Source: a virus. From it: 64,000 bases of DNA. Made by a program: the position numbers and the translations under genes. A model generated the notes under the pieces. That model searched no databases. It saw only the letters and a list, made by a program, of their open reading frames with translations, and had not been told where the DNA came from. The stretch covers positions 1 through 64,000 of IMG/VR virus record IMGVR_UViG_3300049793_000099; one strand, 5' to 3'. Positions 21,911 to 37,698 of this stretch are shown here, piece after piece. How positions within the stretch are numbered: the first letter of the stretch is position 1; every line of letters begins with the position of its first letter.

Positions 21911-24090
21911 ATGAGTGAAAATAAAATAAGTCTTTTTGAAAGAGCTTATAAAAATATTGTAGAAAAGAGAAAAAGAGTATTATTAGGAAAAATAAATTGT
22001 ATTCCTTTAGGATTTCCTAGATTTGAAAATGAATTACCTGGTATTGAACAAGGTAAAAATTATTTGATAACTGCTAACAGTAAGGTAACTCTTTAAAATA
22101 ATTAAAAAAATAATATAAAATAAGCGTTAAATAGTTGGGATTTTAAATAAAAAAATAGTTTATCTTTGTGGTAAATTAAAAAATTATTTATATGCAAATT
22201 ATTAAACCAAAAGAAAATTCAGGAATTTATTGTATTATTAATACTTTCAATAACAAACGTTATGTCGGAAGTTCAATTAATTTATATATGAGATTACAAG
22301 TACATAGAAGTATGTTAAGAAAAAATTATCATCAAAATAGAAAACTTCAAAATTCTTGGAATAAATATTCTGAAGAAAGATTTGATTGTTATATATTAGA
22401 ATATTGTTCTGAAGAATTATTGATAACTCGAGAACAATATTATATTGATAATTTAAAACCTGAATATAATTTAGTTTTACAAGTAGAACGAAATATATTA
22501 AGTAAAGAATCTAGATTATTGCAATCAGAAACTCGTAAAAGAAGAATTAAATCAGGAGAAATAAAACTTTCTTGTGAAAAAATAATTTATCAATATGATT
22601 TAGAAGGTACTTTTTTAGAAAAATACGATAGTATTACAAAAGCATGTATTATAAATAATATTCATCAATCTACAATTTGTAGATTTTTAAATAATACTTA
22701 TAGAAAAGGAGGAAATTATTTATGGTCGTTAGAATATAAAGAAAAATTAGACCCTTATATTAGACTTAGACATGATACAGGTAAATTACACAAACCTGTT
22801 CAAATTTTAGAAGACGGAATCATTGTTTTAGAATTTGGATCTTTTAAAGAATGTGCTAAATATTTTAATACTTATTCAACATGTATTTCTTATGCGATTA
22901 AAATTAACGCTGTTTTTAGAAAAAAATATAAAATTATTTTAAAACCTGCCTAGGACAATGGTAACATTGTACCATGCACATCTGAATATCGGTGAAGCCT
23001 TATCGTAAAGACGATGGTAATACCGAGGCATAGGGAGTAAAGTTCCAGCCGTAGAGACTAGATGCAGATGCTCCTATAGAAATATAGGATGAAGATATAG
23101 TCCAGACCACAAAACATTAAATTGGTAATGAAAATTATAGTGGTATGAGGAAAAAGTCAAATTACAGATTGGATATTTCTTTATAATACAATACAACAAG
23201 TTATTGATAAAGGTTTAGATATTAGATTAAAAATCTTCTATTTTACTTTAGAAATGACCGCTGAACAGAAGATGTTATCCGCATTTTCAAATATTCTTTA
23301 TGTTAAAGAAGGTATTCGCATATCTCCTAAAGATTTAAGATCTACTAAAGCAGACAATGTATTATCTCAAGAAATATTAAATATTATAAGTAAATACGAA
23401 CCTTATTTTAAAAAAATAGAAGAAGTTGTTGAATTTATTGATGATATTCGCACAGGATATGGAATTTATATAACAATAAGAGATTATGCTTTAGCTAATG
23501 GTACAATCCATAAACGAAAAATTGAAACTAAACCAGGAGTGTTTATTGAAGTTGAAGACTATTATGAAGCAAATGATCCTGAAGAATATGTAATGATAAT
23601 TATCGATCACTGTTCTTTAATAAGTCCTGCTAAAAATTATGAAACAGGTTTACCTATGACTTTACATGAATCAATAGGAAAACTTAGTTCCGATCATCTT
23701 ATTAAACTTAGAAATAGATTTAAATATATTTGTGTAGTAGTTCAACAACAAATGGCAGGACAAGAAAGTGTTGAAAATAAAAAGTATAATAAACTTAAAC
23801 CTTCTTTAGATGGTCTAGCAGATAATAAAACTACACAAAGGGATTTTGACTATATACTTGGACTTTTTAGTCCTTTTAGGCATGAAATTCCTGAATATAT
23901 GGGTTATGATATTCATAAGTTTAAAGATCAAATTAGATTTCTTGAAATATTAGGAGGTCGTGAAGGCGGTGGCGGAACAATTTGTCCATTATATTTTGAT
24001 GGAGCAGTAAATTATTTCAAAGAATTACCTTTACCAAACGATCCAGAATTAAATAAAGTTTATGAGTTTATGAAAAATATTAAAAAATAG
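21911..24090 (+). CDS. dnaB: DnaB-type replicative helicase, split by a group I intron
   Basis: Exon 1 is 21911-22086 and exon 2 is 23148-24090. Joining them gives a 372-residue protein and restores the Walker A motif, ANSKVGKS at residues 55-62, with the split codon GT|A for Val59. Exon 2 then gives FYFTLEMT (helicase H2), MIIIDHCSLI (Walker B) and VVVQQQM (H3). The RecA-like C-terminal domain is present but no full N-terminal DnaB domain, a shortened form common in phages. The helicase would unwind DNA ahead of PolB with the primase at 27329. Without splicing the product stops three codons past residue 58. Confidence 0.9.
22161..22168 (+). promoter_or_regulatory. Bacteroidota-type -7 promoter inside the intron
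   Basis: TATCTTTG matches TAnnTTTG exactly and lies 23 bases before the endonuclease ATG. TTG at about 22137 lies near but slightly far for a -33 box. It would let the endonuclease be made independently of dnaB transcription. Confidence 0.5.
22192..22953 (+). CDS. Intron-encoded GIY-YIG homing endonuclease
   Basis: A 253-residue endonuclease with GIY at residues 11-13, YVGSS at 24-28 and the catalytic Arg at 34, followed by the helical part of the GIY-YIG domain ending in NLKPEYN. The middle and C-terminal parts contain NUMOD1-like repeats that include IYQYDLEGTFLEKYDSITKA and VQILEDGIIVLEFGSFKE. It would cut intronless dnaB alleles and drive intron spread. It lies wholly inside the intron, between the 5' end and the catalytic core, with its own promoter. 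Confidence 0.9.
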   Translation: MQIIKPKENSGIYCIINTFNNKRYVGSSINLYMRLQVHRSMLRKNYHQNRKLQNSWNKYSEERFDCYILEYCSEELLITREQYYIDNLKPEYNLVLQVERNILSKESRLLQSETRKRRIKSGEIKLSCEKIIYQYDLEGTFLEKYDSITKACIINNIHQSTICRFLNNTYRKGGNYLWSLEYKEKLDPYIRLRHDTGKLHKPVQILEDGIIVLEFGSFKECAKYFNTYSTCISYAIKINAVFRKKYKIILKPA

Positions 24091-27328: not shown

Positions 27329-28354
27329 ATGTTTAATCTAAATAAAGAAAAACAATTAATATCTAAATCTGAAATTTTAAAATATTTTAATGAATTAGAA
27401 ATATTTCAACATTATATAGACGATGAAGTAATGTTAAGTAAATTAATATTATCGCCTTTAAGAAAGGAAAATAAAGCTTCCTTTGGATTCTTTGTTGGAG
27501 AAGGTAATGAAATATGTTTTAATGATTTTAAGCTTGGAAAAGGTGATTTTATACAGTTTTTAAGATTAAGAGATGGTTTAACATATTTTGAAGCTTTAAG
27601 TAAAATTGCAAATGATTTTAATCTTCAAGATGATTATATTTGTAAAATATATCCTAAAAGTAGTGATAATACATCTAAAGTTAGAATTATTAAAGATGAT
27701 ATGTTATCTAAATATACAGGTTATTATTTAGGTAAAAAAGCTAGAGAATGGCAATCACACGATGTATTATTTTGGAGACAATTTGGCATTGGTAAAAAAA
27801 CATTAGAATTCTTTAATGTGCAACCAATAAGTTTTATATTTATTGGAAATAATTGTTTTCCTGCTGATAAATATGCATATTGTTTTATAGAAATGAAAGA
27901 TGGTTATGAAACATATAAGATTTATCAACCTTTTAGTGAAAATTATAAATGGATTAATAATCATAATAATTCTGTATGGCAAGGTTGGACACAATTACCT
28001 GAATCTGGAGATGATTTAATTATAACTAAATCACTAAAAGATGTAATGTGTTTGTATGAAGTTTTAAAATTACCATCAATTGCAATGCAATCTGAAAATG
28101 TATTACCAAAAAGACATATATTTCAACAATTGGAATCTAGATTTAAAAATATTGAATTATTATATGATAATGATTTTGATAAAAATCCTAATTGGGGAAG
28201 AATCTTTGCAGATAAATTTGCTAAAGAATATGGATTGATAGATAGTTTTATTCCAAATAAATATCAATCTAAAGATCCTTCAGATTTAGTGAAAAATTAT
28301 GGTAAAGAAAGAGCAGAGCATATATTATTATATGAAACATTGTTACCTTTTTAA
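27329..28354 (+). CDS. dnaG: DnaG-type primase (Toprim)
   Basis: A 341-residue primase that makes RNA primers for lagging-strand synthesis. The N-terminal part resembles the CHC2-like domain (LSPLRKENKASFGFFVGEGN, then CFNDFKLGKGDFIQFL) but without the four zinc ligands. The Toprim part has LIITKSLKDVMCLYE (K234), AMQSENV and LLYDNDFDKN (D280, D282, D284). This short form without helicase is usual in crAss-like and other phages. It works with the DnaB encoded upstream. Confidence 0.88.
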   Translation: MFNLNKEKQLISKSEILKYFNELEIFQHYIDDEVMLSKLILSPLRKENKASFGFFVGEGNEICFNDFKLGKGDFIQFLRLRDGLTYFEALSKIANDFNLQDDYICKIYPKSSDNTSKVRIIKDDMLSKYTGYYLGKKAREWQSHDVLFWRQFGIGKKTLEFFNVQPISFIFIGNNCFPADKYAYCFIEMKDGYETYKIYQPFSENYKWINNHNNSVWQGWTQLPESGDDLIITKSLKDVMCLYEVLKLPSIAMQSENVLPKRHIFQQLESRFKNIELLYDNDFDKNPNWGRIFADKFAKEYGLIDSFIPNKYQSKDPSDLVKNYGKERAEHILLYETLLPF

Positions 28355-28369
28355 AAATATAAAAAAATT

Positions 28370-28675
28370 ATGAAAAATATAGAATTAACAAAAGATCACA
28401 AATGTAAATTATTAGAAATGTGTAAAGTATTGTTTCCTGAAATTGATTGGAAATGGTGGACTATTGAAGGACCAAATGGAGAAGTTGAAGAGTTAGAATT
28501 ATTAGAATGTTCTACAATAGAACAATTTTTAACAATTCATTGGTTTGAATTTTGTATGACACATTTAGCTAAAAAATTATTAAATCCGAATGATTTAATA
28601 TATTATCAAACAACAGGATATTTTTTATATGAACACCCAATAGATTATTTTTATGTAAAATTTAAACAAAAATGA
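28370..28675 (+). CDS. Hypothetical protein, 101 aa
   Basis: An acidic protein rich in Trp and Phe (WKWWTIEGPNGEVEELELLE, then HWFEFCMTHLAKKL). Small phage proteins with this WKWW..HWFEFC pattern recur but have no known role. It ends TGA overlapping the next ATG, so it is coupled to the amide cassette. Confidence 0.6.
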   Translation: MKNIELTKDHKCKLLEMCKVLFPEIDWKWWTIEGPNGEVEELELLECSTIEQFLTIHWFEFCMTHLAKKLLNPNDLIYYQTTGYFLYEHPIDYFYVKFKQK

Positions 28676-29190
28676 GAAAAGTTAATAAACAATCTGAAGG
28701 TTATCAAACAAGAGCTCAGAAAAAAAAAGAAAGAAAAGAACTTAGAAGAAAATCACAAATGGAAAAGAAAATTTTAATTGGGATATATGATGATTATAGA
28801 CACGAAGGTTGTTTAAATGGAATACTAAATAAAATAAGCTGTAAATTAATAGGAGCGTATTCTACAGAACCTATTTATATAATGTATGATTTAAATGATG
28901 AAGGTTTAAACTGCGCTGTTCAAATCAATGGAAATAATTCTATTAAAGTAGAAGTTTGGGAAGTAAATGAAATATTTTTAGACAGAATAGAAAGAAGTTA
29001 TAATTATTATTCAGATTTTGATGAATACCTACAAGATTATATAAAAGAAAAAACATTATCTCCATTTGGTGAAATTTCAATGTATTTTATAAATGAAATT
29101 AAACCTGAAGATAAAATTGTAATTAGTGGAGATTGGATTGAATATTTGAACTATAAAAAAGTAATGGGAAATAAATCGTTAACATTATAA
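28672..29190 (+). CDS. Degenerate gamma-glutamylcyclotransferase-like protein, 172 aa
   Basis: After a basic N-terminal extension of about 35 residues the protein follows the layout of the next gene: KKILIGIYDDYR in place of YGSLR, then AYSTEPIYIMYDL, a NGNNSIKVEVWEV strand, and IERSY in place of LEGY. It ends IVISGDWIEYL, matching its neighbour. The glycine-rich YGSL loop is lost, so either activity or substrate is changed. It is a tandem duplicate of the GGCT-like gene at 29190. Confidence 0.65.
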   Translation: MRKVNKQSEGYQTRAQKKKERKELRRKSQMEKKILIGIYDDYRHEGCLNGILNKISCKLIGAYSTEPIYIMYDLNDEGLNCAVQINGNNSIKVEVWEVNEIFLDRIERSYNYYSDFDEYLQDYIKEKTLSPFGEISMYFINEIKPEDKIVISGDWIEYLNYKKVMGNKSLTL

Positions 29191-29606
29191 TGGAAAAAAA
29201 TAAATATTTAGTTGGGGTATACGGAAGTCTTCGTAAAACAATGTCTAATCATCAATATTATTTATCAGATTCTGAGTATAAAGGTACATTTTCAACAGAA
29301 CCAGAATATACTTTACATTCCCTATCTGCTTATCCAGGTTTAAAATTAAATGGAAACACTTCTATTATAATGGAAGTTTATGAAGTAGGTGAAGATACTT
29401 TAAGAAGTTTAAATCATTTAGAAGGTTATGATCCTAGAAAAATATCAAATTTTTACGATAGAATTGAAATTGATACTCCTTGGGGTAAAGCTTTTACATA
29501 TATTTATATAAGTGAATTATCAAAAGACTCTATTGTAGAATCTGGTGATTGGTGTGAATATAAAAAAGAAGAATTAAATGAGTGGTCAAATGTTACAAAT
29601 AATTAA
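29190..29606 (+). CDS. Gamma-glutamylcyclotransferase-like (GGCT/AIG2) protein
   Basis: A 138-residue GGCT-fold protein. YGSLR is at residues 11-15, STEPEYTLHSLSAYPGL is the second conserved strand, and the catalytic Glu lies in LEGYD (E78). GGCT enzymes split gamma-glutamyl amides, releasing 5-oxoproline. In phages they cluster with amidoligases. The ATG overlaps the previous stop. With two hydrolases and three ligases nearby, it likely trims or recycles a gamma-glutamyl conjugate. Confidence 0.85.
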   Translation: MEKNKYLVGVYGSLRKTMSNHQYYLSDSEYKGTFSTEPEYTLHSLSAYPGLKLNGNTSIIMEVYEVGEDTLRSLNHLEGYDPRKISNFYDRIEIDTPWGKAFTYIYISELSKDSIVESGDWCEYKKEELNEWSNVTNN

Positions 29607-29623
29607 AAATAATAATAAAAATA

Positions 29624-30331
29624 ATGAATAATATAAAAAAGATCGCCATTGTGGGACATTTCACAGGTGAAAATAGTTTTGGAATTTCTAAACCATATTT
29701 ATTCTTTTGGCAACAATTTGGAGAAGTTTCTTTAATTTCACCATTTGAAACACATGTAAGAGATGTGGACTTATTAGTAATGCCAGGTGGTCAAGATATA
29801 GATCCATGTCGATATTTATCATCAGATGAAGATACTCATATATTTACAGGTTCTCCTTGTATGCAAAAAGAAAGATTTGATAGATTTCTATTACCTAAGT
29901 ATATCGAAGCTAAAATTCCCATATTCGGAATTTGTCGTGGACATCAAAGTTTAGCTGTTTATTTTAAAGCTAAATTAGTTCAACATATGTATCATGAAAC
30001 CAATCCATCTAATGATGGAGTTAAAACAATGCATAAAGTTATTGCTCCTGATTTTATTAAATATACAATTCCTACAATGCACAATTATGTTGATTTTAAT
30101 TTTGATGTAAATAGTAGACATCATCAAGTAGTTATGAATTGTCCTGAAAATGCAACAGTGATTGGTAGATATAACGGTGAAGAAAAACAACATTGGGAAG
30201 AAGGTTGTATTGAAGCATTATCTTATTTTCCAAATTATCCTGCACATACAGTTCAGTGGCATCCAGAAGATAAACAAGATGATTTTAGTATTAGATTAAT
30301 TAATCATTTATTAAATTTAAACAATGAATAA
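29624..30331 (+). CDS. Class I glutamine amidotransferase-fold hydrolase (peptidase C26-like), copy 1
   Basis: A 235-residue protein with LLVMPGGQDIDP (51-61), the nucleophile elbow GICRGHQ with Cys104, SRHHQVVMN, and the His/Glu pair QWHPED (H213, E215). The triad Cys-His-Glu is complete. The GGxDxxP motif and C26 layout resemble gamma-glutamyl-GABA hydrolase (PuuD) and gamma-glutamyl hydrolase. The predicted reaction is hydrolysis of a gamma-glutamyl bond. Part of the amide cassette. Confidence 0.88.
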   Translation: MNNIKKIAIVGHFTGENSFGISKPYLFFWQQFGEVSLISPFETHVRDVDLLVMPGGQDIDPCRYLSSDEDTHIFTGSPCMQKERFDRFLLPKYIEAKIPIFGICRGHQSLAVYFKAKLVQHMYHETNPSNDGVKTMHKVIAPDFIKYTIPTMHNYVDFNFDVNSRHHQVVMNCPENATVIGRYNGEEKQHWEEGCIEALSYFPNYPAHTVQWHPEDKQDDFSIRLINHLLNLNNE

Positions 30332-30717
30332 TGGAAGAGATTTTAATAAATTTTGAAACAGCTAAATTAGCTAAAGAAAAAGGTTTTAATGAAAAAGTTT
30401 ATAGAGAATATGATAAATTTGGATATTTAAGATGTACTTCTAAATCAGCAAATGTTGTATTAGGTCCTTATGAAGAATTGTTAAAAAGTACAGAATATTC
30501 AGCATCAACTCAATCCTTATTACAAAAATGGTTGAGAGAAGTTCATAAAATACATATTGATATTAGAACTAATGGCGCAAGTGGAGGTTGTTACTTTTTC
30601 TATTTATTTCAAACTAAAGTTCCTTTTTATACTTTATTTATATCTGAAAAAAATTCCGATACTTATGAAGAAGCGTTAGAATATGCATTAAAAGAATCTT
30701 TAAAATTAATAAAATAA
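30331..30717 (+). CDS. Conserved phage hypothetical protein, 128 aa
   Basis: The protein contains STQSLLQKWLREVHKIHIDI and ends with YEEALEYALKESLKLIK, a pattern I have often seen in small phage proteins without known function. It lies inside the amide cassette but need not take part, because this family also occurs alone. Start overlaps the previous stop (TAATGG). Confidence 0.7.
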   Translation: MEEILINFETAKLAKEKGFNEKVYREYDKFGYLRCTSKSANVVLGPYEELLKSTEYSASTQSLLQKWLREVHKIHIDIRTNGASGGCYFFYLFQTKVPFYTLFISEKNSDTYEEALEYALKESLKLIK

Positions 30718-30718
30718 T

Positions 30719-31537
30719 ATGAATAAATTAAAAAAATATAAACTATATCGTCCTTTAATACTAAGTCGTCATGGAACACACTCTATTTTAAGGGCTAAAA
30801 ATCAAACACTTCCATTATTACCATTTAGATCTGTAATACGTCTTGGATCGACAACAGAGAATACAGATGATAGATTGGAAATTAATACAGTTCAGGCAGT
30901 TAAAAACTCAGCTTCTAAATTATTAATGAAACAAAAATTTACTGAAGCTGGTGTTAAAACTGCTAATTGGACTTGTTATGTAGATTATCAATTGTGGAAA
31001 GAATTTATAGGAGAAAATGAATACCCTGTAGTAGCAAAATCTCATTTTGGTTCAAGAGGTATGGGAAACACTAAATTTAATACTGAAGAAGAATTTTTAA
31101 CTTGGTTACCAAATAAAAATCTTAATAATTATATATTTGAAAAGTTTGTTAAAATGACTAGAGAATATAGATTACATATAACTAAATTTGGTTGTTTTTA
31201 TACTTGTAGAAAATTAGTTAAAAGTGATGCACCTGAAGATACTTGGCAAAAACACGATGATGTTTGTAATTGGGTATTAGAAGAAAATCCATCATTTAAG
31301 AAACCTAAAAATTGGAATGATATTGTAGCAGATTGTGTTAAAGCAAAAGAAGTTTTAGGGTTAGATATTTGCGCATTTGATGTAGGTGTTCAAGGTGCTA
31401 TAGATGGAGTTGAAAGAGAAAATCCAGAATGGGTTATATTTGAGTCATGTTCAGCACCAAGCTTCGGAAATGTTACAAGTCAAAAATATATAGAAATTTT
31501 ACCAAAATTATTAATAGATAAATATAATAATAAATGA
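30719..31537 (+). CDS. ATP-grasp ligase (glutamate-ligase-like, phage type)
   Basis: A 272-residue ATP-grasp enzyme. NSASKLLMKQKFTEAGVKT opens the fold, YPVVAKSHFGSRGMGN is the grasp loop with the ATP-binding Lys, IFEKFVKMTREYRLHI holds the acidic and Arg residues, and LDICAFDVGV and WVIFESCSAPSF give the Mg-binding Asp and Glu. The family joins a carboxylate to an amine through an acyl phosphate (RimK and related). It ends TGA overlapping the next ATG. Together with two COOH-NH2 ligases it builds an amide or peptide-like product. Confidence 0.88.
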   Translation: MNKLKKYKLYRPLILSRHGTHSILRAKNQTLPLLPFRSVIRLGSTTENTDDRLEINTVQAVKNSASKLLMKQKFTEAGVKTANWTCYVDYQLWKEFIGENEYPVVAKSHFGSRGMGNTKFNTEEEFLTWLPNKNLNNYIFEKFVKMTREYRLHITKFGCFYTCRKLVKSDAPEDTWQKHDDVCNWVLEENPSFKKPKNWNDIVADCVKAKEVLGLDICAFDVGVQGAIDGVERENPEWVIFESCSAPSFGNVTSQKYIEILPKLLIDKYNNK

Positions 31538-32475
31538 ATCCAGAATTAATAGAAAAAATAAAATCATATCAATTAGATAAAGATACTTTAAAATCGACGA
31601 TTAAAGTATTTTTAAATGGTTATATATCTACAATATTGTATGCTGAAATTGAGGGTGAACAAATTGTAGAAAAAGTAGAAACAATTTACAATTATTTACA
31701 AAATATTATTAAAGAACCTGAAATAAAACAAACTTTAAATATCGTAATTGCAGACAATACTTCATCTTTAGACTATGTATCATATTTAAATCAAAAATAT
31801 GAAGTTACTGTTCATAAAACAGTAGATGTAAAAAATCCAAAAGATATTGATTTAGTATTGTTTACAGGTGGAGAAGATGTTAATCCCGCATATTATTGTG
31901 AAAATATTGGTAAATTTACAAGTATTAATAAATCTAGAGATGATAAAGAAATAGATACTTTTCATAAATTTAAAGGATATTCCTTTTTATTTGGTGTATG
32001 TCGAGGGTCACAATTATTGACAGTTTTAAGTGGAGGAAAATTAATCCAACACGTGGAAGGTCATTGTAAAGATCATTCAATGGTTTTAAATAATAGATCA
32101 AGTTATAACATAACATCATCACATCATCAAATGTTATATCCATTTGATCTAAATGAAAAAAATTATGAATTAATTGCTTATTCTGAATATTTTCAAAGTA
32201 AAACTTATCTTAATGGAGATAATGAGGAAATTGAATTACCAAAAAACTTTTTAGAACCTGAAATTATTTATTATAAAAGTACAAATGCTTTAGTAATTCA
32301 AGGACACCCTGAATGGAGTCATTGTGAAAAAAGAACCTCTTCGATGTGTTTAAATTTAATTGATAAATATTTAAAAGAATTTAAAAACAATAAAAAAACT
32401 ATCAATCCTCTTTATCATATTCCATCAAATATTAATGATTTAAAATATGGTGATAATTATTATGAAAAAAAATGA
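31534..32475 (+). CDS. Class I glutamine amidotransferase-fold hydrolase (peptidase C26-like), copy 2
   Basis: A 313-residue protein whose first 65 residues are an extra domain without a clear match. The C26 part shows LVLFTGGEDVNPAYY (108-121), GVCRGSQ with Cys156, SSHHQM and IQGHPEW (H258, E260). The triad is complete. It is only distantly similar to copy 1, so the two probably act on different bonds. Confidence 0.85.
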   Translation: MNPELIEKIKSYQLDKDTLKSTIKVFLNGYISTILYAEIEGEQIVEKVETIYNYLQNIIKEPEIKQTLNIVIADNTSSLDYVSYLNQKYEVTVHKTVDVKNPKDIDLVLFTGGEDVNPAYYCENIGKFTSINKSRDDKEIDTFHKFKGYSFLFGVCRGSQLLTVLSGGKLIQHVEGHCKDHSMVLNNRSSYNITSSHHQMLYPFDLNEKNYELIAYSEYFQSKTYLNGDNEEIELPKNFLEPEIIYYKSTNALVIQGHPEWSHCEKRTSSMCLNLIDKYLKEFKNNKKTINPLYHIPSNINDLKYGDNYYEKK

Positions 32476-32536
32476 AGAAGAATGGGGAGATGATTATAAT
32501 TGGGAAATCATTGAAAAAGAACCAGAACAAGTTTAA
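32462..32536 (+). CDS. Possible 24-aa acidic peptide
   Basis: A short frame starting before the previous stop in another reading frame and ending TAA eleven bases before the amidoligase ATG. The product (MKKNEEEWGDDYNWEIIEK and on) is acidic with two Trp. It may be a real coupling peptide or chance. Confidence 0.3.
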   Translation: MKKNEEEWGDDYNWEIIEKEPEQV

Positions 32537-32546
32537 TAAAAAAAAT

Positions 32547-33353
32547 ATGAAAATTAAAAATATCACTTTAGGTACAGATCCAGAATTATTTCTACAAAAA
32601 GATAATAAAATTATTTCAGCAATTGGTAAAATTGGGGGTTCTAAATCGGAACCCCAACCGATTTCAGAAGATGGTCATTTTATTCAAGAAGACAATGTTG
32701 CAATTGAATATAACATTCCACCTTGTAAAACACTTATTGACTGGATATATCATAATAATTTTGTTAAGGATTATTTAGAAGTATTAGTTTCAGGAATGGG
32801 TTGTACATTAGCAATTAATGCTTCTGCAATATTAGATGAATCTGAGTTAAACAATGATATTGCGCGTCTTGCAGGTTGTGAACCAGATTTTGATGTATGG
32901 AATGAATGTATTAATGAACCTGCAGATTTAAGTGCTACAAGTATGAGAAGTGCTGGAGGACATATTTCAATTGGTTGGGATGAACCTACACAAGATCAAC
33001 AAATTGATATGGTTAAAGCTATGGATGCTATAATTGGATTAGAATCTATATTATTAGATACCGATACAGAACGTAAAAAACTTTATGGTAAAGCAGGTTG
33101 TTTTAGATTTAGGGAGTATGGAATTGAATATAGAAGTTTATCAAATTTCTGGATTAAAACTGATGAATCTTTACAATGGGCTTGGAATACAACAATGAAA
33201 GCTATCGATTTAGTTAATTCTGGTAAAATTGAAAAAGTTAAAAAACACGGAAATAGAATTGTTGAAGCAATTAATACTAATAATAAAGATTTAGCATTAG
33301 AGTTATTAAATGAATTTTCAAAAATTCAAGAAAAAGAATTACAAATAAATTAA
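32547..33353 (+). CDS. COOH-NH2 ligase, type 2 (phage amidoligase)
   Basis: The likely start is ATG 32547 (268 aa), preceded by an A-rich leader. An in-frame ATG at 32472 would add a poor-quality 25-residue extension. Motifs include LGTDPELFL at the N-terminus, IEYNIPP, AGGHISIGWDEPT with the catalytic His, and a final FREYGIEYRSLSNFW. This is the glutamine-synthetase-like COOH-NH2 ligase family found in phages, which forms an amide from a carboxylate and an amine using ATP. Substrates unknown. Confidence 0.87.
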   Translation: MKIKNITLGTDPELFLQKDNKIISAIGKIGGSKSEPQPISEDGHFIQEDNVAIEYNIPPCKTLIDWIYHNNFVKDYLEVLVSGMGCTLAINASAILDESELNNDIARLAGCEPDFDVWNECINEPADLSATSMRSAGGHISIGWDEPTQDQQIDMVKAMDAIIGLESILLDTDTERKKLYGKAGCFRFREYGIEYRSLSNFWIKTDESLQWAWNTTMKAIDLVNSGKIEKVKKHGNRIVEAINTNNKDLALELLNEFSKIQEKELQIN

Positions 33354-33366
33354 AAAAATAAAACAT

Positions 33367-35217
33367 ATGTGTGGAATTTTTGGAATGTCTACAAATAAAC
33401 CTGAAAATTTAGATGTTAATGGTGTACATATTTTAGGTATTTATAATATAGAAAGAGGTAGAATGTCTTGTGGATTATCATGGGATGGTGATGTACAATA
33501 TGGACTTGGTTTTGATAAATTATATACAGATTTTATTGTAGATAGGGAAATTAAACCTATTAAAATACCTATTATGATTGGTCATACTAGACAACCTAGT
33601 TATGGTTTCGCAATTACAGAAGATAATGCTCATCCATTTGGATTTGGTACAAGTAAAAATAAGGAAGGATATGAGATGATTTTCTGTCATAATGGAACTT
33701 TAAAAAATCATAAAGAATTAGCTAAAAAATATAATATTGATTTAACTGAAAAAATTCAAAAATTATCGTACGATGGTCATTGTTATGAAACAACTCGTGA
33801 TAAAATTGATAGTGAAGTATTAGGTGAAATATTATATAAAACAAAAAAATTTCATGTTTTAAGTGAATATATTGGAGCTGCTGCTTTAGCTTGGACTTGG
33901 ATTGATGAACCAAATAAATTATATTTATGGTCAGGTGCTTCTAAAACAACACAAGGTTCTTTTACAGTTACAGAAGTAGAAGAAAGACCAATGAATGTTT
34001 ATTGTAAAAATGAAAACAGCATGTTCTTTTCATCTTTAAAAGATAGTTTGACTGTTTTAGGTGCATCAAAAAAAGATGATTTACAAATAGATTATAATAC
34101 TGTTTATATTATTACAGATGGTGATTTTGTAAGTGCTGAAAAACATAAAGTTAGTCGGCTGCAAGCAGGACAAAATGAAAATATCACGTATAATCAAAAA
34201 TATAGTAGATATGATTATGGAAATGAAAATTATTGTGATTGGGAAGATGTGAGATCTCAAAATTTAAATAAAATTTCAACTGATGTTAATACAGCAAAAA
34301 ATTCAATGATTAATTTACAAAATGATAAACTAATTCACCCTATTACATATTATAAAAATAAAGTTTATTGTAAAAGTTTAAGATATTGGGAAAATGATTC
34401 TCTTATAAATGGAGTTTATCTCTATATTAAAAATTGGGGTTTCAAGTTTGCAGGGATTGACACTTTTACAGCAAACGCTTATGTTAAAATTATAAAAGGT
34501 TTAGCTTTTGATTATAAAGAAGGAACTTTTAATTTTAATATGTCAAATAAAGAAGGTTTTATACCATTTGAAAAAGATGTTAAAAATATACAATTTCATT
34601 ATTTTACAGATGGTGTTTTATTAAAAACTTTAGAAGATTACAATAGATCTGTAATTTTAAATAAAGATTTAAAAAATTCTGTAAAATGTATTGATTATCA
34701 AATGTTATCTTATATTTCTAAACATCCTATAATTGATATAAATTCTACAAAAACACCTTCTGTTGCAATGTTTGATGGTAAATCTTTTACTGGAAATATA
34801 ACAGAACTAGGATTTGAAAAAATATATTATTTTAATAACGGCATATTTGTAAAATGGGTAAAAAGAGAAGACTTAATAACTAAAATTGAAACACCTGTTA
34901 TAATATTACCTAGTGTTATAGAGTCAAGTAAGTTTGATAAAGAATTAATTAATAATTCTATTAAATCTATTAAAGATTTTGAAAAAAATAATGAAAAAGT
35001 TTTTAATTCAGAAATAATTACTAAAGAATTAGAGGATGAAGTTTTTATTTCAGAGTTAATTTTAGAATGTTTTGAAAAACATGCTGAAGAAGTATCTGAA
35101 ACAATTATTGAACTTTCTGATTGGAAAGATAATGAAAATGTTAAAACCGCAATAAATACACTAAATCTAATAAATCATACTTTAAAAGATTTTGTCGAAA
35201 AACCTAATACAAAATAA
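33367..35217 (+). CDS. Class II (Ntn) glutamine amidotransferase with long C-terminal extension
   Basis: After Met removal Cys2 is the N-terminal nucleophile (MCGIFGMS). GHTRQPSYG (72-80) and CHNGT (107-111) supply Arg and the Asn-Gly oxyanion hole, and DSEVL follows. This domain takes ammonia from glutamine. The remaining 400 residues have no synthetase domain I recognise and may bind the acceptor or the ligases. The enzyme would feed ammonia, or a glutamyl group, to the neighbouring ligases. 616 aa in all. Confidence 0.87.
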   Translation: MCGIFGMSTNKPENLDVNGVHILGIYNIERGRMSCGLSWDGDVQYGLGFDKLYTDFIVDREIKPIKIPIMIGHTRQPSYGFAITEDNAHPFGFGTSKNKEGYEMIFCHNGTLKNHKELAKKYNIDLTEKIQKLSYDGHCYETTRDKIDSEVLGEILYKTKKFHVLSEYIGAAALAWTWIDEPNKLYLWSGASKTTQGSFTVTEVEERPMNVYCKNENSMFFSSLKDSLTVLGASKKDDLQIDYNTVYIITDGDFVSAEKHKVSRLQAGQNENITYNQKYSRYDYGNENYCDWEDVRSQNLNKISTDVNTAKNSMINLQNDKLIHPITYYKNKVYCKSLRYWENDSLINGVYLYIKNWGFKFAGIDTFTANAYVKIIKGLAFDYKEGTFNFNMSNKEGFIPFEKDVKNIQFHYFTDGVLLKTLEDYNRSVILNKDLKNSVKCIDYQMLSYISKHPIIDINSTKTPSVAMFDGKSFTGNITELGFEKIYYFNNGIFVKWVKREDLITKIETPVIILPSVIESSKFDKELINNSIKSIKDFEKNNEKVFNSEIITKELEDEVFISELILECFEKHAEEVSETIIELSDWKDNENVKTAINTLNLINHTLKDFVEKPNTK

Positions 35218-35219
35218 AA

Positions 35220-37013
35220 ATGAGTGCTGAAAAAAAAGTAATTACAATAAAAAGTGAGGAATTACCTATTTCTAAATGTAGAAAATTTAATACTCTTTAT
35301 TATAAAATAGGAGATATTAATATTAAAAATTCAGGGGATTGTTATCTAATTAATGGTAAATGTTATAGAGAAGAAACTGGTTTAATTGTTTATAATCATA
35401 GTATAAATAAATATGTTATTTTAGATAATACTTTAATTAGAGGTGTTGTTGATATACTAGAAGATGAATTAATTATAGGTTATTTTAATAATAATTTAAA
35501 ATATTCAAAAGTTATAGATAAAGAAGATAATTCTTTTTATTTATATAATTCAAAAATTTTTAAAAATAATAAAGAATATAGGGAAAAATTATCTAGTGGA
35601 GATTTTTATCACATATCAAAACTTTCCGCGTCTAAATTTAATATAATATATTTTCCAAATAAAGATTATAAACATAGTTTACCATATGACTCAAAGGGAA
35701 TTATCGAACATCATTTAAAAGGGTATAAAGAGTATAATCCTGAAATTTCAAACAATATTAAAAATTATGCACCTTTATTAGAAACTTTATCGTTTGGTTT
35801 AGAATTTGAAACATCAAAAGGTTTTATTCCAAATAGAATACTTGATCAATACGGATTAATTCCTTTAAGAGATGGTTCTATATCAGGTATTGAATATGTT
35901 ACTATCCCTATGGAAGGTGAAAAAGGTTTACAATGTACTGTAGATATTCTTAAGGTATTGAAAGAAAGAACTGAGTATGAGGATAATACTTGTTCATTGC
36001 ATTTACATTTAGGTAATATTCCAAGAACAAAAGAATTCATATTGGCATTTTTTAAAGTTGGTATGAAAATACAAGATGAAATGTTTCAAATGTTTCCTTT
36101 ATATAAAAAATATAATTATCATATTAAAAATAAAAATTATTCTGCACCATTACCAACATTTGAAATTTTATCTCAATTAGATCCTATTATCACTTCTGAT
36201 AATATTGATTTTAATTTTGGAATATTGTACAAATATTTATCTATGGGTCAAGATTTCAAATCTGTTGGTAATGATCTTAATAATGTTGTGGCACATCCAG
36301 CAGATCCTAATGGTAATCAAAAATGGTTAGTCAAATGTCGTTATTTTTTATATAATGTAGTTCCATTAATCTTTGGTAATAAACAAACTATAGAATTTAG
36401 AATTCACACTCCTACTTATGATATAAATAAAATATTACCTTTTATTTTCATGAATAGTTTGATAGTTAATTTTACGATAAAGCACCAAGAAAGAATTTTG
36501 AGAAACAAAGATTTTTTAAATCAATTTGATTTATTTGGTATTTTAAGTAATCAAACGGAAGAGTATGATATTTTATGTGGAAGTAAATTTAGAGATTTAA
36601 TGTATAATTATATTGAAAAAAGAAAAAATTATTGTGAAAGTCAAATATTAAAAGGTAATATTTTAGGTACTGAATCTGAAATACCTGCACCAATGGATAT
36701 TAATTGGATAAGTAATCAAGAAGAAAAAAAGAATTCTTTTTTTAAACAACACAGTCCAAAACCTTTACCAAAACTGAAAGTGCAAAATAATTACGATAAA
36801 GGTATGGACACTATAAGAAAACCTATAGTTGTTTCTGAACATCAAGAATTATATAATTGGGAGAATAATATAAAACCTATACTTTTTAATAATTCAAGTT
36901 TTAAAGATGCAACGGAAACCAAAATTAATGTAGGTATTAAATCTCAAATAGAAAAATTAGAACAATCTCTAATAGCAGAGTTTAAAACACAAGCCTATGA
37001 CCTCCCTTACTAA
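35220..37013 (+). CDS. Amidoligase (second COOH-NH2 ligase) with N-terminal extension
   Basis: A 597-residue protein. The first 185 residues are beta-rich and not assigned. The catalytic part begins LETLSFGLEFETSKG (E195, E197), continues with LRDGSISGIEYVTIP and SLHLHLG (H261, H263), and includes the late Arg in IEFRIHTPTYD. This is the Amidoligase_2 layout, in which Glu, His and Arg bind Mg-ATP as in glutamine synthetase. It directly follows the amidotransferase after two bases. Likely partner of that gene and of the ligase at 32547. Confidence 0.83.
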   Translation: MSAEKKVITIKSEELPISKCRKFNTLYYKIGDINIKNSGDCYLINGKCYREETGLIVYNHSINKYVILDNTLIRGVVDILEDELIIGYFNNNLKYSKVIDKEDNSFYLYNSKIFKNNKEYREKLSSGDFYHISKLSASKFNIIYFPNKDYKHSLPYDSKGIIEHHLKGYKEYNPEISNNIKNYAPLLETLSFGLEFETSKGFIPNRILDQYGLIPLRDGSISGIEYVTIPMEGEKGLQCTVDILKVLKERTEYEDNTCSLHLHLGNIPRTKEFILAFFKVGMKIQDEMFQMFPLYKKYNYHIKNKNYSAPLPTFEILSQLDPIITSDNIDFNFGILYKYLSMGQDFKSVGNDLNNVVAHPADPNGNQKWLVKCRYFLYNVVPLIFGNKQTIEFRIHTPTYDINKILPFIFMNSLIVNFTIKHQERILRNKDFLNQFDLFGILSNQTEEYDILCGSKFRDLMYNYIEKRKNYCESQILKGNILGTESEIPAPMDINWISNQEEKKNSFFKQHSPKPLPKLKVQNNYDKGMDTIRKPIVVSEHQELYNWENNIKPILFNNSSFKDATETKINVGIKSQIEKLEQSLIAEFKTQAYDLPY

Positions 37014-37698
37014 AAATATAAATGGTTTTAATTGGAAAAAAGAATTAAATTTAGAATGGTCAACAGCTTTATCTGATTTATTAGAATCTGATTATTCAAA
37101 ACATCTAAGTAATTTTATAGAACAAGTTTATCTATCTGATAAAGAAATTTATCCTATAAAAAATAGATTATTTATACCTTTTAAAAGATGTTCTTTAAAA
37201 GATGTTAAAATTGTGGTAATTGATAATAGACCTGTTAAAGATATTAGATCATCAGGTATAGGTAGAGGTATGCAAGAATCTTCAATATTAATTAAAGATT
37301 TACCTAGAGAATTAAGAGAATTTAGAGATTGTATTTATGAAACAATATATGGAAATCAATATAGTATAACTAATTTTGATAATAGTCTTGATGATTATTG
37401 TGATGAAGATATGTTATTTTTAAATTGTTCGATGTGTGTTGAAAAAGATAAAGATTATACAATTATTTGGAAACATTTTATTCGTAATGTAATTCAAGAA
37501 ATTAATAAAAAAAAAGAAAATGTTGTATATTTATTTTTAACAGGTGATAATTTAGATTTATGTGAGTATATTAATGGAGATAAAAACAAAATTATAATAA
37601 ATCCATTTTCAATATTAATGAGTTATTCAACTATTTTTACAGAATTAGATGAATATATAGAAGAAAATTATCCACAATTTAATAGGATTTCATGGTAG
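36997..37698 (+). CDS. UDG-superfamily protein with altered catalytic motif
   Basis: The 233-residue protein keeps the family-1 uracil-DNA glycosylase frame: W21, LSNFIEQVYLSDKEIYP, then VKIVVIDNRP where active enzymes have VVILGQDPYH, later LFLNCSMCVEKD in place of LLLNTxLTV, and VVYLFLTGDN in place of VVFLLWG. The water-activating Asp and the following Pro-Tyr are gone (DNRPV at 76-80). It is unlikely to cut uracil. Poxvirus D4 shows that a UDG fold can serve as a polymerase processivity factor, and a family-B polymerase is present here. The role is inference. Confidence 0.7.
   Translation: MTSLTKNINGFNWKKELNLEWSTALSDLLESDYSKHLSNFIEQVYLSDKEIYPIKNRLFIPFKRCSLKDVKIVVIDNRPVKDIRSSGIGRGMQESSILIKDLPRELREFRDCIYETIYGNQYSITNFDNSLDDYCDEDMLFLNCSMCVEKDKDYTIIWKHFIRNVIQEINKKKENVVYLFLTGDNLDLCEYINGDKNKIIINPFSILMSYSTIFTELDEYIEENYPQFNRISW

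Follow-up and report, generated by a model that had tools for sequence, protein, structure and literature searches.

The nine open reading frames (ORFs) that span positions 28672–37013 of the window (the whole stretch of viral DNA analysed here, 64,000 nucleotides of record IMGVR_UViG_3300049793_000099) are, with near certainty, a member of a known phage amidoligase cassette, in a crAss-like version with additional C26 hydrolase and GGCT genes. Three predicted ATP-dependent amide-forming enzymes are kept together here with a glutamine amidotransferase (GAT), C26 hydrolases, and GGCT-like proteins, families whose known relatives cut or transfer gamma-glutamyl amides, and the amide or gamma-glutamyl chemistry proposed in the initial annotation holds. 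That annotation took the arrangement to be unknown; it is already in print. The same gene set has been described in podoviruses under the name 'peptidoglycan modification cassette' (PMC5498523), with a prediction concerning the cell wall and superinfection (PMC5498523, PMC11945000). The most likely use of the predicted gamma-glutamyl/amide remodelling appears to us to be on a cell-envelope precursor, a proposal on which belief and doubt are nearly balanced, with doubt slightly ahead.

Gene content and layout of the cassette

The nine ORFs are co-directional, all on the plus strand, and nearly abutting. All eight enzymes of the initial annotation are confirmed in place, but it overlooked a ninth ORF (30331..30717), which encodes a small accessory protein (phrog_12005, 1.2e-26). 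The run opens with a degenerate GGCT-like protein (28672..29190; phrog_2520, 2.3e-7), in which the alignment shows YDDYR in place of YGSLR and a residue other than Glu at the catalytic-Glu position; we take both the motif and this position to have functional roles in GGCT-like proteins. The gene that follows (29190..29606) encodes an intact GGCT/AIG2-like or gamma-glutamylamine cyclotransferase-like protein (PF06094, 6.9e-17; YtfP structure 1xhs, 1.5e-13). Two C26 (gamma-glutamyl hydrolase-type) hydrolases, at 29624..30331 (PF07722, 1.1e-22) and 31534..32475 (PF07722, 3.8e-14; phrog_7218, 1.2e-32), had been credited with complete catalytic triads, and the alignment agrees, the nucleophile (CRG) and H-x-E motifs being intact in both. 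A counterpart of the second directly precedes the COOH.NH2 ligase in most relatives.

The core consists of four genes. The ATP-grasp ligase (30719..31537; phrog_2599, 2.8e-23) scores below the Pfam cut-off and is RimK/cyanophycin-synthase-like, with profile matches to cyanophycin synthase (3.2e-9) and alpha-L-glutamate ligase (7e-7). The COOH.NH2 ligase type 2 (32472..33353) exceeds its cut-off (PF14395, 28.6 bits against 25, E 1e-6; phrog_3815, 4e-71), the Amidoligase_2 protein (35220..37013) falls just under its own (PF12224, 21.1 bits against 22; phrog_2443, 2.5e-36), and the class II GAT (33367..35217) matches GATase_6 (PF13522, 1.4e-6). The start-stop overlaps noted earlier stand at 29190, 30331, and 31534, but relatives of the COOH.NH2 ligase begin at 32547 in the alignment, so that its start is probably 32547 rather than 32472 and the 4-nt overlap with the preceding C26 gene is therefore probably not real.

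Outside the core lies a degenerate uracil-DNA-glycosylase (UDG)-like gene (36997..37698, plus strand; phrog_12143, 4.5e-15). This neighbour belongs to the crAss-type layout only and has lost its motif; its homologue in phage phi14:2 matches Pfam UDG (3.5e-12).

Distribution and expression among phages

The initial annotation regarded the genes as one cassette and suggested a comparison of gene neighbourhoods, which bears this out: they co-occur in related and unrelated phages, and all four core genes are present in 62 of 68 non-redundant viral loci seeded on the COOH.NH2 ligase, among which several gene orders are found. In loci of at least 18 kb the core ORFs are all on one strand (194/194). 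The 80 loci seeded in this way are the best of 533 viral contigs, so that they lean towards relatives of the window; 33 of the 80 are shorter than 18 kb, some of these ending inside the cassette. In L066 and L067 the seed search detected a ligase that ORF calling did not, and these two were counted as misses. Named phages with the cassette are phi14:2, cr108_1, Lbo-JY46, tf, 7-11, PA11, RIO-1, and PaP3, of which tf (Pseudomonas putida) and phi14:2 (Cellulophaga) are safe, culturable carriers. Phages of Bacteroidota, Pseudomonas, enterobacteria, and cyanobacteria retain the cassette, and the Arthrobacter phage Salgado has a reduced form of it: GGCT, amidoligase, and GAT are present in the stretch read, without the other core genes, so that a smaller minimal set is possible, perhaps with another substrate.

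The survey fixes the core as the ATP-grasp ligase, the COOH.NH2 ligase, the GAT, and the amidoligase, usually with C26 and often with GGCT, the remaining genes being optional. Among the 80 seeded loci, at least two C26 genes occur in 25, phrog_12005 (in varying positions) in 13, two GGCT-like genes in 11, and a degenerate GGCT-type gene in 10. The suggestion of a multi-step product with trimming consequently cannot draw on the extra C26 or the degenerate GGCT, additions that only some relatives have. A first count of 12 among 85 C26 proteins without catalytic motifs was rejected, as closer alignment of a chosen subset showed the search pattern to be too strict; fragments aside, clear motif loss in that subset is confined to L057, one copy in L094, and one copy in Lbo-JY46.

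Expression, which the initial annotation had also proposed to check, is documented in relatives. SU10 cassette proteins were detected by mass spectrometry and PaP3 ORF32-48 were transcribed as middle genes, orf42-48 being the cassette. The SU10 material was PEG-precipitated and not CsCl-purified, and its detection therefore says nothing about virions.

The amidotransferase, its membrane anchor, and candidate substrates

In the structure model the GAT comprises an Ntn domain (residues ~1–270), a beta domain (~315–500), and a helical C-terminus (525–615). The extension of about 400 residues seen by the initial annotation is real, but is a feature of the whole family and not peculiar to this phage. 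C2, R75, N109, G110, and D148 are invariant in 12/12 aligned rows, leaving the glutaminase site intact. The structural matches of the whole protein are filled by the Ntn domain, outside which there are only helical matches, to the C-terminus. They include PurF/GlmS (Z ~24) and EgtC (Z ~21), which we take to be a gamma-glutamyl-removing Ntn hydrolase; the folds alone cannot separate glutaminase from EgtC-type activity, and in sequence the GAT is nearer to the PurF/GlmS glutaminases.

The presence of EgtC among these matches is one of several observations consistent with a small diffusible or metabolic product, such as a gamma-glutamyl amine or peptide, a compound of nitrogen recycling, or a redox compound, with gamma-glutamyl serving as a temporary protecting group, in the way known from BtrJ/BtrG and EgtA/EgtC. 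The non-ligase enzymes of the cassette all have folds in which the known members use gamma-glutamyl amides as substrates, the GGCT of phage tf is annotated as BtrG-like, and the phi14:2 cassette has five genes only, all of them for enzymes, which leaves no gene for a dedicated carrier peptide. We nevertheless consider such a product rather unlikely, since a scan of 27 of the window's 55 ORFs of at least 100 aa turned up neither a transporter nor a tailoring gene, and since many GATs carry a membrane anchor, which is not expected in a soluble metabolite pathway.

This anchor, a new observation here, is an N-terminal hydrophobic segment ahead of the catalytic Cys in 29 of 86 non-redundant GAT rows. 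The anchored proteins have no start codon directly before the Cys, which suggests that they may be membrane-tethered pro-enzymes, and over the 29 distinct anchors the flanks carry a net charge of -1 before and +56 after the segment, as would be expected for a membrane-bound, cytosol-facing enzyme working on an envelope precursor. The window's GAT is without it, as are 20/20 rows of the podovirus-type clade, and on the GAT tree some 19 gains or losses are needed, at least 15 of them forced; the anchor is therefore not essential. The tree and the count exclude rows shorter than 330 aa, rows that lack a CG-type start motif, and loci L006–L014, which duplicate the same contigs. The anchor offers a concrete pointer, open to testing, towards a substrate at the inner membrane.

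For an envelope precursor, we picture the following course. In early to middle infection the enzymes would couple amino acids, by gamma-glutamyl or amide linkages, to a precursor in the cytosol or attached to the membrane, most likely of peptidoglycan or another part of the envelope; the precursor would then be amidated, or its gamma-glutamyl groups trimmed, and the altered envelope might hinder superinfection or tune lysis. We count in favour the match of the gene set to the published cassette, the joint occurrence of the core genes in several orders and on one strand, the conserved catalytic residues, the structural likenesses of the GAT and the amidoligase, the GAT anchors, the all-enzyme set of phi14:2, and the expression in relatives. 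We count against it the location of the cassette in the replication region and not beside lysis genes, the lack of an anchor in the window's GAT and the podovirus-type clade, the reduced set of Salgado, and the profiles of the COOH.NH2 ligase and the amidoligase, which gave no sequence-level match to solved structures. In open-licence literature, searched within a limited scope, we found no report of a measured cassette product or of a test of what the cassette makes. A more specific version, which is possible but doubtful, is a membrane-associated gamma-glutamyl add-and-remove pathway that rebuilds a lipid-linked envelope precursor, in which the anchored GAT pro-enzyme of many crAss-like phages would be cleaved at a conserved L-(N/S)-C, directly before the C, freeing the catalytic Cys. 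If true, phage genes would here be rewriting the wall chemistry of their host, by means of enzymes found mostly in viruses.

The ligases themselves raise the alternative that amino acids are added to a protein, whether of the host ribosome, of RNA polymerase, or of the virion, in the manner of RimK or of Pup ligase/Dop. The ATP-grasp ligase is nearest to cyanophycin synthase, RimK, and alpha-L-glutamate ligases. In the amidoligase, E195, E197, H261, H263, E392, and R394 are invariant in 12/12 aligned rows and in 38/38 rows, and residues 188–500 of its model, which follow an extra N-terminal domain of ~185 residues, have a glutamine-synthetase-type fold that matches Dop, YbdK, glutamine synthetase (GS), and glutamate-cysteine ligase (GCL) at Z 10–11, with Dop at the top, tied with YbdK and GS. 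Gamma-glutamyl-specific GGCT and C26 enzymes would be unusual for protein tagging, the five genes of phi14:2 include no tag protein, and the SU10 proteins are uninformative on virions; protein modification is in our judgement decidedly unlikely.

With the COOH.NH2 ligase profile, 533 contigs are found among viruses and 7 among the bacterial and archaeal genomes of the collection. This largely viral distribution would suit a role in counter-defence, by chemical neutralisation of a defence molecule or toxin of the host, as would the early or middle expression in relatives. We think this very unlikely: the ten proteins of the locus have no match in PADLOC, which lists defence and not counter-defence, and we know of no specific defence partner for the cassette.

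The location between primase and recombination genes in phi14:2 and cr108_1, together with the UDG-like protein adjoining the cassette in the crAss-type layout, could point to decoration of DNA bases, one of the uses offered by the initial annotation. Our survey gathers published data that speak against it, all of them from the relatives tf and U17. Native DNA of the cassette-bearing phage tf is cut by RsaI, HpaI, EcoRV, SmaI, and HaeIII and was sequenced with ordinary polymerases (PMC3517423), and DNA of the LUZ24-like U17 is cut by 11 of 16 enzymes, in the same test in which a preQ0-type phage resisted eight (PMC11945000). The UDG-like gene, moreover, was not seen in podovirus-type layouts, and no base-modification family was found among the scanned window ORFs (27 of 55, at least 100 aa). 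We give this use very little credence.

Relation to known systems

Hardies 2013 and Iyer 2009 are reportedly the works cited for the peptidoglycan modification cassette of RIO1-like, LUZ24-like, phiEco32-like, and PA11 phages. That cassette has a homologous COOH.NH2 ligase, class II GAT, RimK-like ATP-grasp ligase, and GGCT, plus an Amidoligase_2 gene, and its genes, like those of the window, are adjacent and lie in the replication region. The window differs in its crAss-type gene order, its two C26 genes, its degenerate second GGCT, its UDG-like neighbour, and a longer amidoligase with an N-terminal domain, while some of its relatives differ in the membrane anchor of the GAT. The podovirus cassette has a ~190-aa protein (phrog_4877) between the COOH.NH2 ligase and the amidoligase, without counterpart in the window. 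The idea that the N-terminal domain of crAss-type amidoligases is a fused phrog_4877 was rejected by profile comparison (probability 0.1%), which also found no relation to one another among the GAT beta domain, the amidoligase N-terminus, and the phrog_4877 protein.

With the Dop/YbdK/GCL/GS superfamily the amidoligase has its fold in common, but the identity is 7–14% in the rows listed and no Pup-like protein was identified in the cassette. In ergothioneine (EgtA/EgtC) and butirosin (BtrJ/BtrG) biosynthesis, a gamma-glutamyl group is put on and later taken off. Both systems pair a ligase with a gamma-glutamyl-removing enzyme, and EgtC has the Ntn fold of the GAT domain; the likeness is one of folds, while the GAT sequence is nearer to PurF/GlmS. 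In Cellulophaga phage phi14:2 (Crassvirales, Steigviridae), which differs from the window in having one GGCT, no C26, and a GAT with an N-terminal anchor, g037-g041 encode GGCT, ATP-grasp ligase, COOH.NH2 ligase, GAT, and amidoligase, followed by UDG and RusA, in the same order as in the window.

Gene content and integrity of the cassette

Positions 28672–37013 of the window, part of a 96,910-base IMG/VR record, hold nine consecutive plus-strand ORFs that by ORF calling are joined by short overlaps or by gaps mostly under 20 bases. Family scans label them, in order, GGCT-like (a weak match), GGACT, C26, phrog_12005 (of unknown function), ATP-grasp, C26, COOH.NH2 ligase, class II glutamine amidotransferase (GAT) and Amidoligase_2; the initial annotation had named all eight enzyme-like genes correctly and missed the phrog_12005 ORF. 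The COOH.NH2 ligase ORF probably begins at 32547. An ORF lies upstream of the cassette at 27329–28354, and in Cellulophaga phage phi14:2, a member of the Crassvirales, and gut phage cr108_1, which are among the nearest named relatives for the cassette genes, a primase gene immediately precedes the cassette region. Homing-endonuclease-like genes are found elsewhere in the window, at 22192–22953 and 773–1336.

On the 3' side lie a uracil-DNA glycosylase (UDG)-like protein (36997–37698), which likewise follows the amidoligase in many crAss-type loci (L002, L019–L125), and a RusA-like gene (from 37692), and neighbours of these two kinds accompany the crAss-type layout. The UDG-like protein may be catalytically dead, since its GQDPY-type motif is eroded to GKEPY or GREPY in relatives and to IDNRPV in the window; locus L106 carries an additional copy with GQDPY.

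The catalytic residues of the other enzymes are largely in place. In an alignment of the window with 11 relatives, GAT Cys2, Arg75, Asn109-Gly110 and Asp148 are invariant in every row, and alignments with relatives show acidic, His and Arg residues retained in the COOH.NH2 ligase and the amidoligase, and lysines, glutamates and one arginine conserved in ATP-grasp. Both window C26 proteins contain the nucleophile and His-x-Glu motifs. The first GGCT was fairly described earlier as degenerate, because YGSLR is gone and the catalytic-Glu position no longer holds Glu. In some relatives the ligase, C26 or amidoligase gene is interrupted by ~1 kb of inserted DNA that could be a group I intron, an intein or a homing endonuclease (L007 7035–8906, L009 4609–6369 and, in the amidoligase, L113).

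Retention of the core genes across viruses

A COOH.NH2 ligase profile matched 533 viral contigs versus only 7 in a bacterial and archaeal genome collection, and the best 80 of the 533 were examined as loci. GAT was present in 77 of these 80, amidoligase and ATP-grasp in 74 each, C26 in 69, and a GGCT or degenerate GGCT relative in 46. The complete core of ATP-grasp (ATPG), COOH.NH2 ligase (COOH), GAT and amidoligase (AMID) occurred in 68 of the 80, in 43 of the 47 loci that reach 18 kb, and in 62 of the 68 non-redundant loci left after collapsing those with GATs more than 95% identical, so the neighbourhood comparison proposed in the initial annotation finds the genes kept together, in several orders. 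Among non-redundant loci the order is ATPG-COOH-GAT-AMID in 41 and COOH-AMID-GAT-ATPG in 11, with rarer ones besides, and all 194 core ORFs in loci of at least 18 kb share a strand within their locus. That the set is retained although gene order varies argues, at the level of sequence, for a shared pathway.

Several variants were also seen. In one layout a second protein, starting MCLI or MCVI, lies 3' of the amidoligase (L050 13131, L055 6376, L059 7282, L071 14927, L095 14650); the L059, L071 and L095 copies score as GAT2-like, with a weak GATase_4 match for that of L071, which suggests a second class II GAT-like enzyme. ORFs of ~190–285 amino acids with no family label lie between ATP-grasp and COOH.NH2 ligase in L050, L055, L059, L069, L072 and L095, at one fixed position that C26 occupies in other layouts. 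Arthrobacter phage Salgado, an actinophage, carries GGCT, amidoligase and GAT (gp97–gp99, L137), possibly a minimal version of the cassette. In two bacterial MAG contigs (L131 and L136), which may represent phage fragments or a different arrangement, the COOH.NH2 ligase adjoins C26 with GGCT close by and the remaining core genes absent.

Predicted structures and a membrane anchor on the amidotransferase

The window GAT model (40 aligned sequences; mean pLDDT 85, pTM 0.50) has an Ntn domain to residue ~270, a low-confidence stretch at 275–312, a beta-rich domain at 315–500 and long helices at 525–615. In structure comparison PurF and GlmS, also the closest by sequence, align with the Ntn domain at Z ~24 over 210–260 residues, and EgtC does so at Z ~21. 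Residues ~170–500 of the amidoligase model (mean pLDDT 85, pTM 0.79) match Dop, YbdK, glutamine synthetases and glutamate-cysteine ligase at Z 10–11 and rmsd 3.6–4.9, values that show a common fold, not a function.

Among 94 distinct GATs, 31 are encoded by ORFs that open with a hydrophobic stretch and pass through charged residues to the catalytic Cys, which has no start codon immediately 5' of it; in a larger set 47 of 110 are anchored, or 29 of 86 with near-copies removed. Summed over 29 distinct anchors, net charge is −1 on the N-terminal and +56 on the C-terminal side of the hydrophobic stretch, Leu stands at Cys−2 in 25, and Asn or Ser at Cys−1 in 20. Class II GATs require an N-terminal Cys, and the arrangement therefore fits a membrane-tethered, cytosol-facing pro-enzyme with a conserved cleavage site. 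Across 15 pairs from six close loci the anchors show 52 synonymous and 55 non-synonymous codon differences in total (summed by hand), which hints no more than mildly at purifying selection, because unconstrained codons should show a clear non-synonymous excess; that the anchor is coding is better supported by its reappearance in distantly related rows. Over-reading the anchor is countered by its absence from the window GAT (the sister GAT of L021, 90% identical, has it) and from all 20 podovirus-type rows, and by the ~19 gains or losses needed on the GAT tree, at least 15 of them forced by well-supported branches.

Candidate substrates and the known phage cassette

Relatives of the non-ligase enzymes act on gamma-glutamyl amides and relatives of the ligases form them, so the simplest joint reading is that the cassette enzymes would together remodel a single precursor through gamma-glutamyl or amide bonds. 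We tentatively rank an envelope precursor first, at somewhat short of an even chance, because those GATs that carry the anchor point to a substrate linked to the membrane. A free metabolite comes second and is unlikely; a protein is a little less likely still, and against a dedicated tag the five-gene phi14:2 set contains no small carrier protein. Counter-defence, in fourth place, appears improbable. Modification of DNA is the least probable, since five ordinary restriction enzymes cut the DNA of cassette-bearing phage tf (PMC3517423) and 11 of 16 cut U17 DNA, the remaining ones perhaps lacking a site (PMC11945000).

An envelope target also agrees with published predictions. The homologous set is present in Pseudomonas phage tf, Salmonella phage 7-11, PA11, RIO-1 and PaP3, and PMC5498523 names it a seven-gene peptidoglycan modification cassette, listing RIO-1, phiEco32, 7-11, PA11, tf, MR299-2, LUZ24, PaP3 and CW02 as carriers. 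PMC11945000 takes up the idea that the peptide side chain would acquire three unusual linkages, serving superinfection prevention or lysis tuning, and PMC10580990 credits the same prediction to Iyer 2009; our search of open-licence papers found none testing the product. In phiEco32-like SU10, published mass spectrometry detected peptides for ATP-grasp (6), GAT (9), YtfP/GGCT (2) and hypothetical gp86 (1), classed as early gene products, from PEG-precipitated material without CsCl purification. PaP3 ORF32–48, a group that includes its cassette (orf42–48), are described as peaking at 10–30 minutes.

The window cassette is thus a real, well-conserved and already described phage cassette that is expressed in relatives. 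It is ordinary by identity, and its interest lies in the product, now open to direct test. Compared with the known phage cassette, the window version is a crAss-like form with additional hydrolase and GGCT genes.
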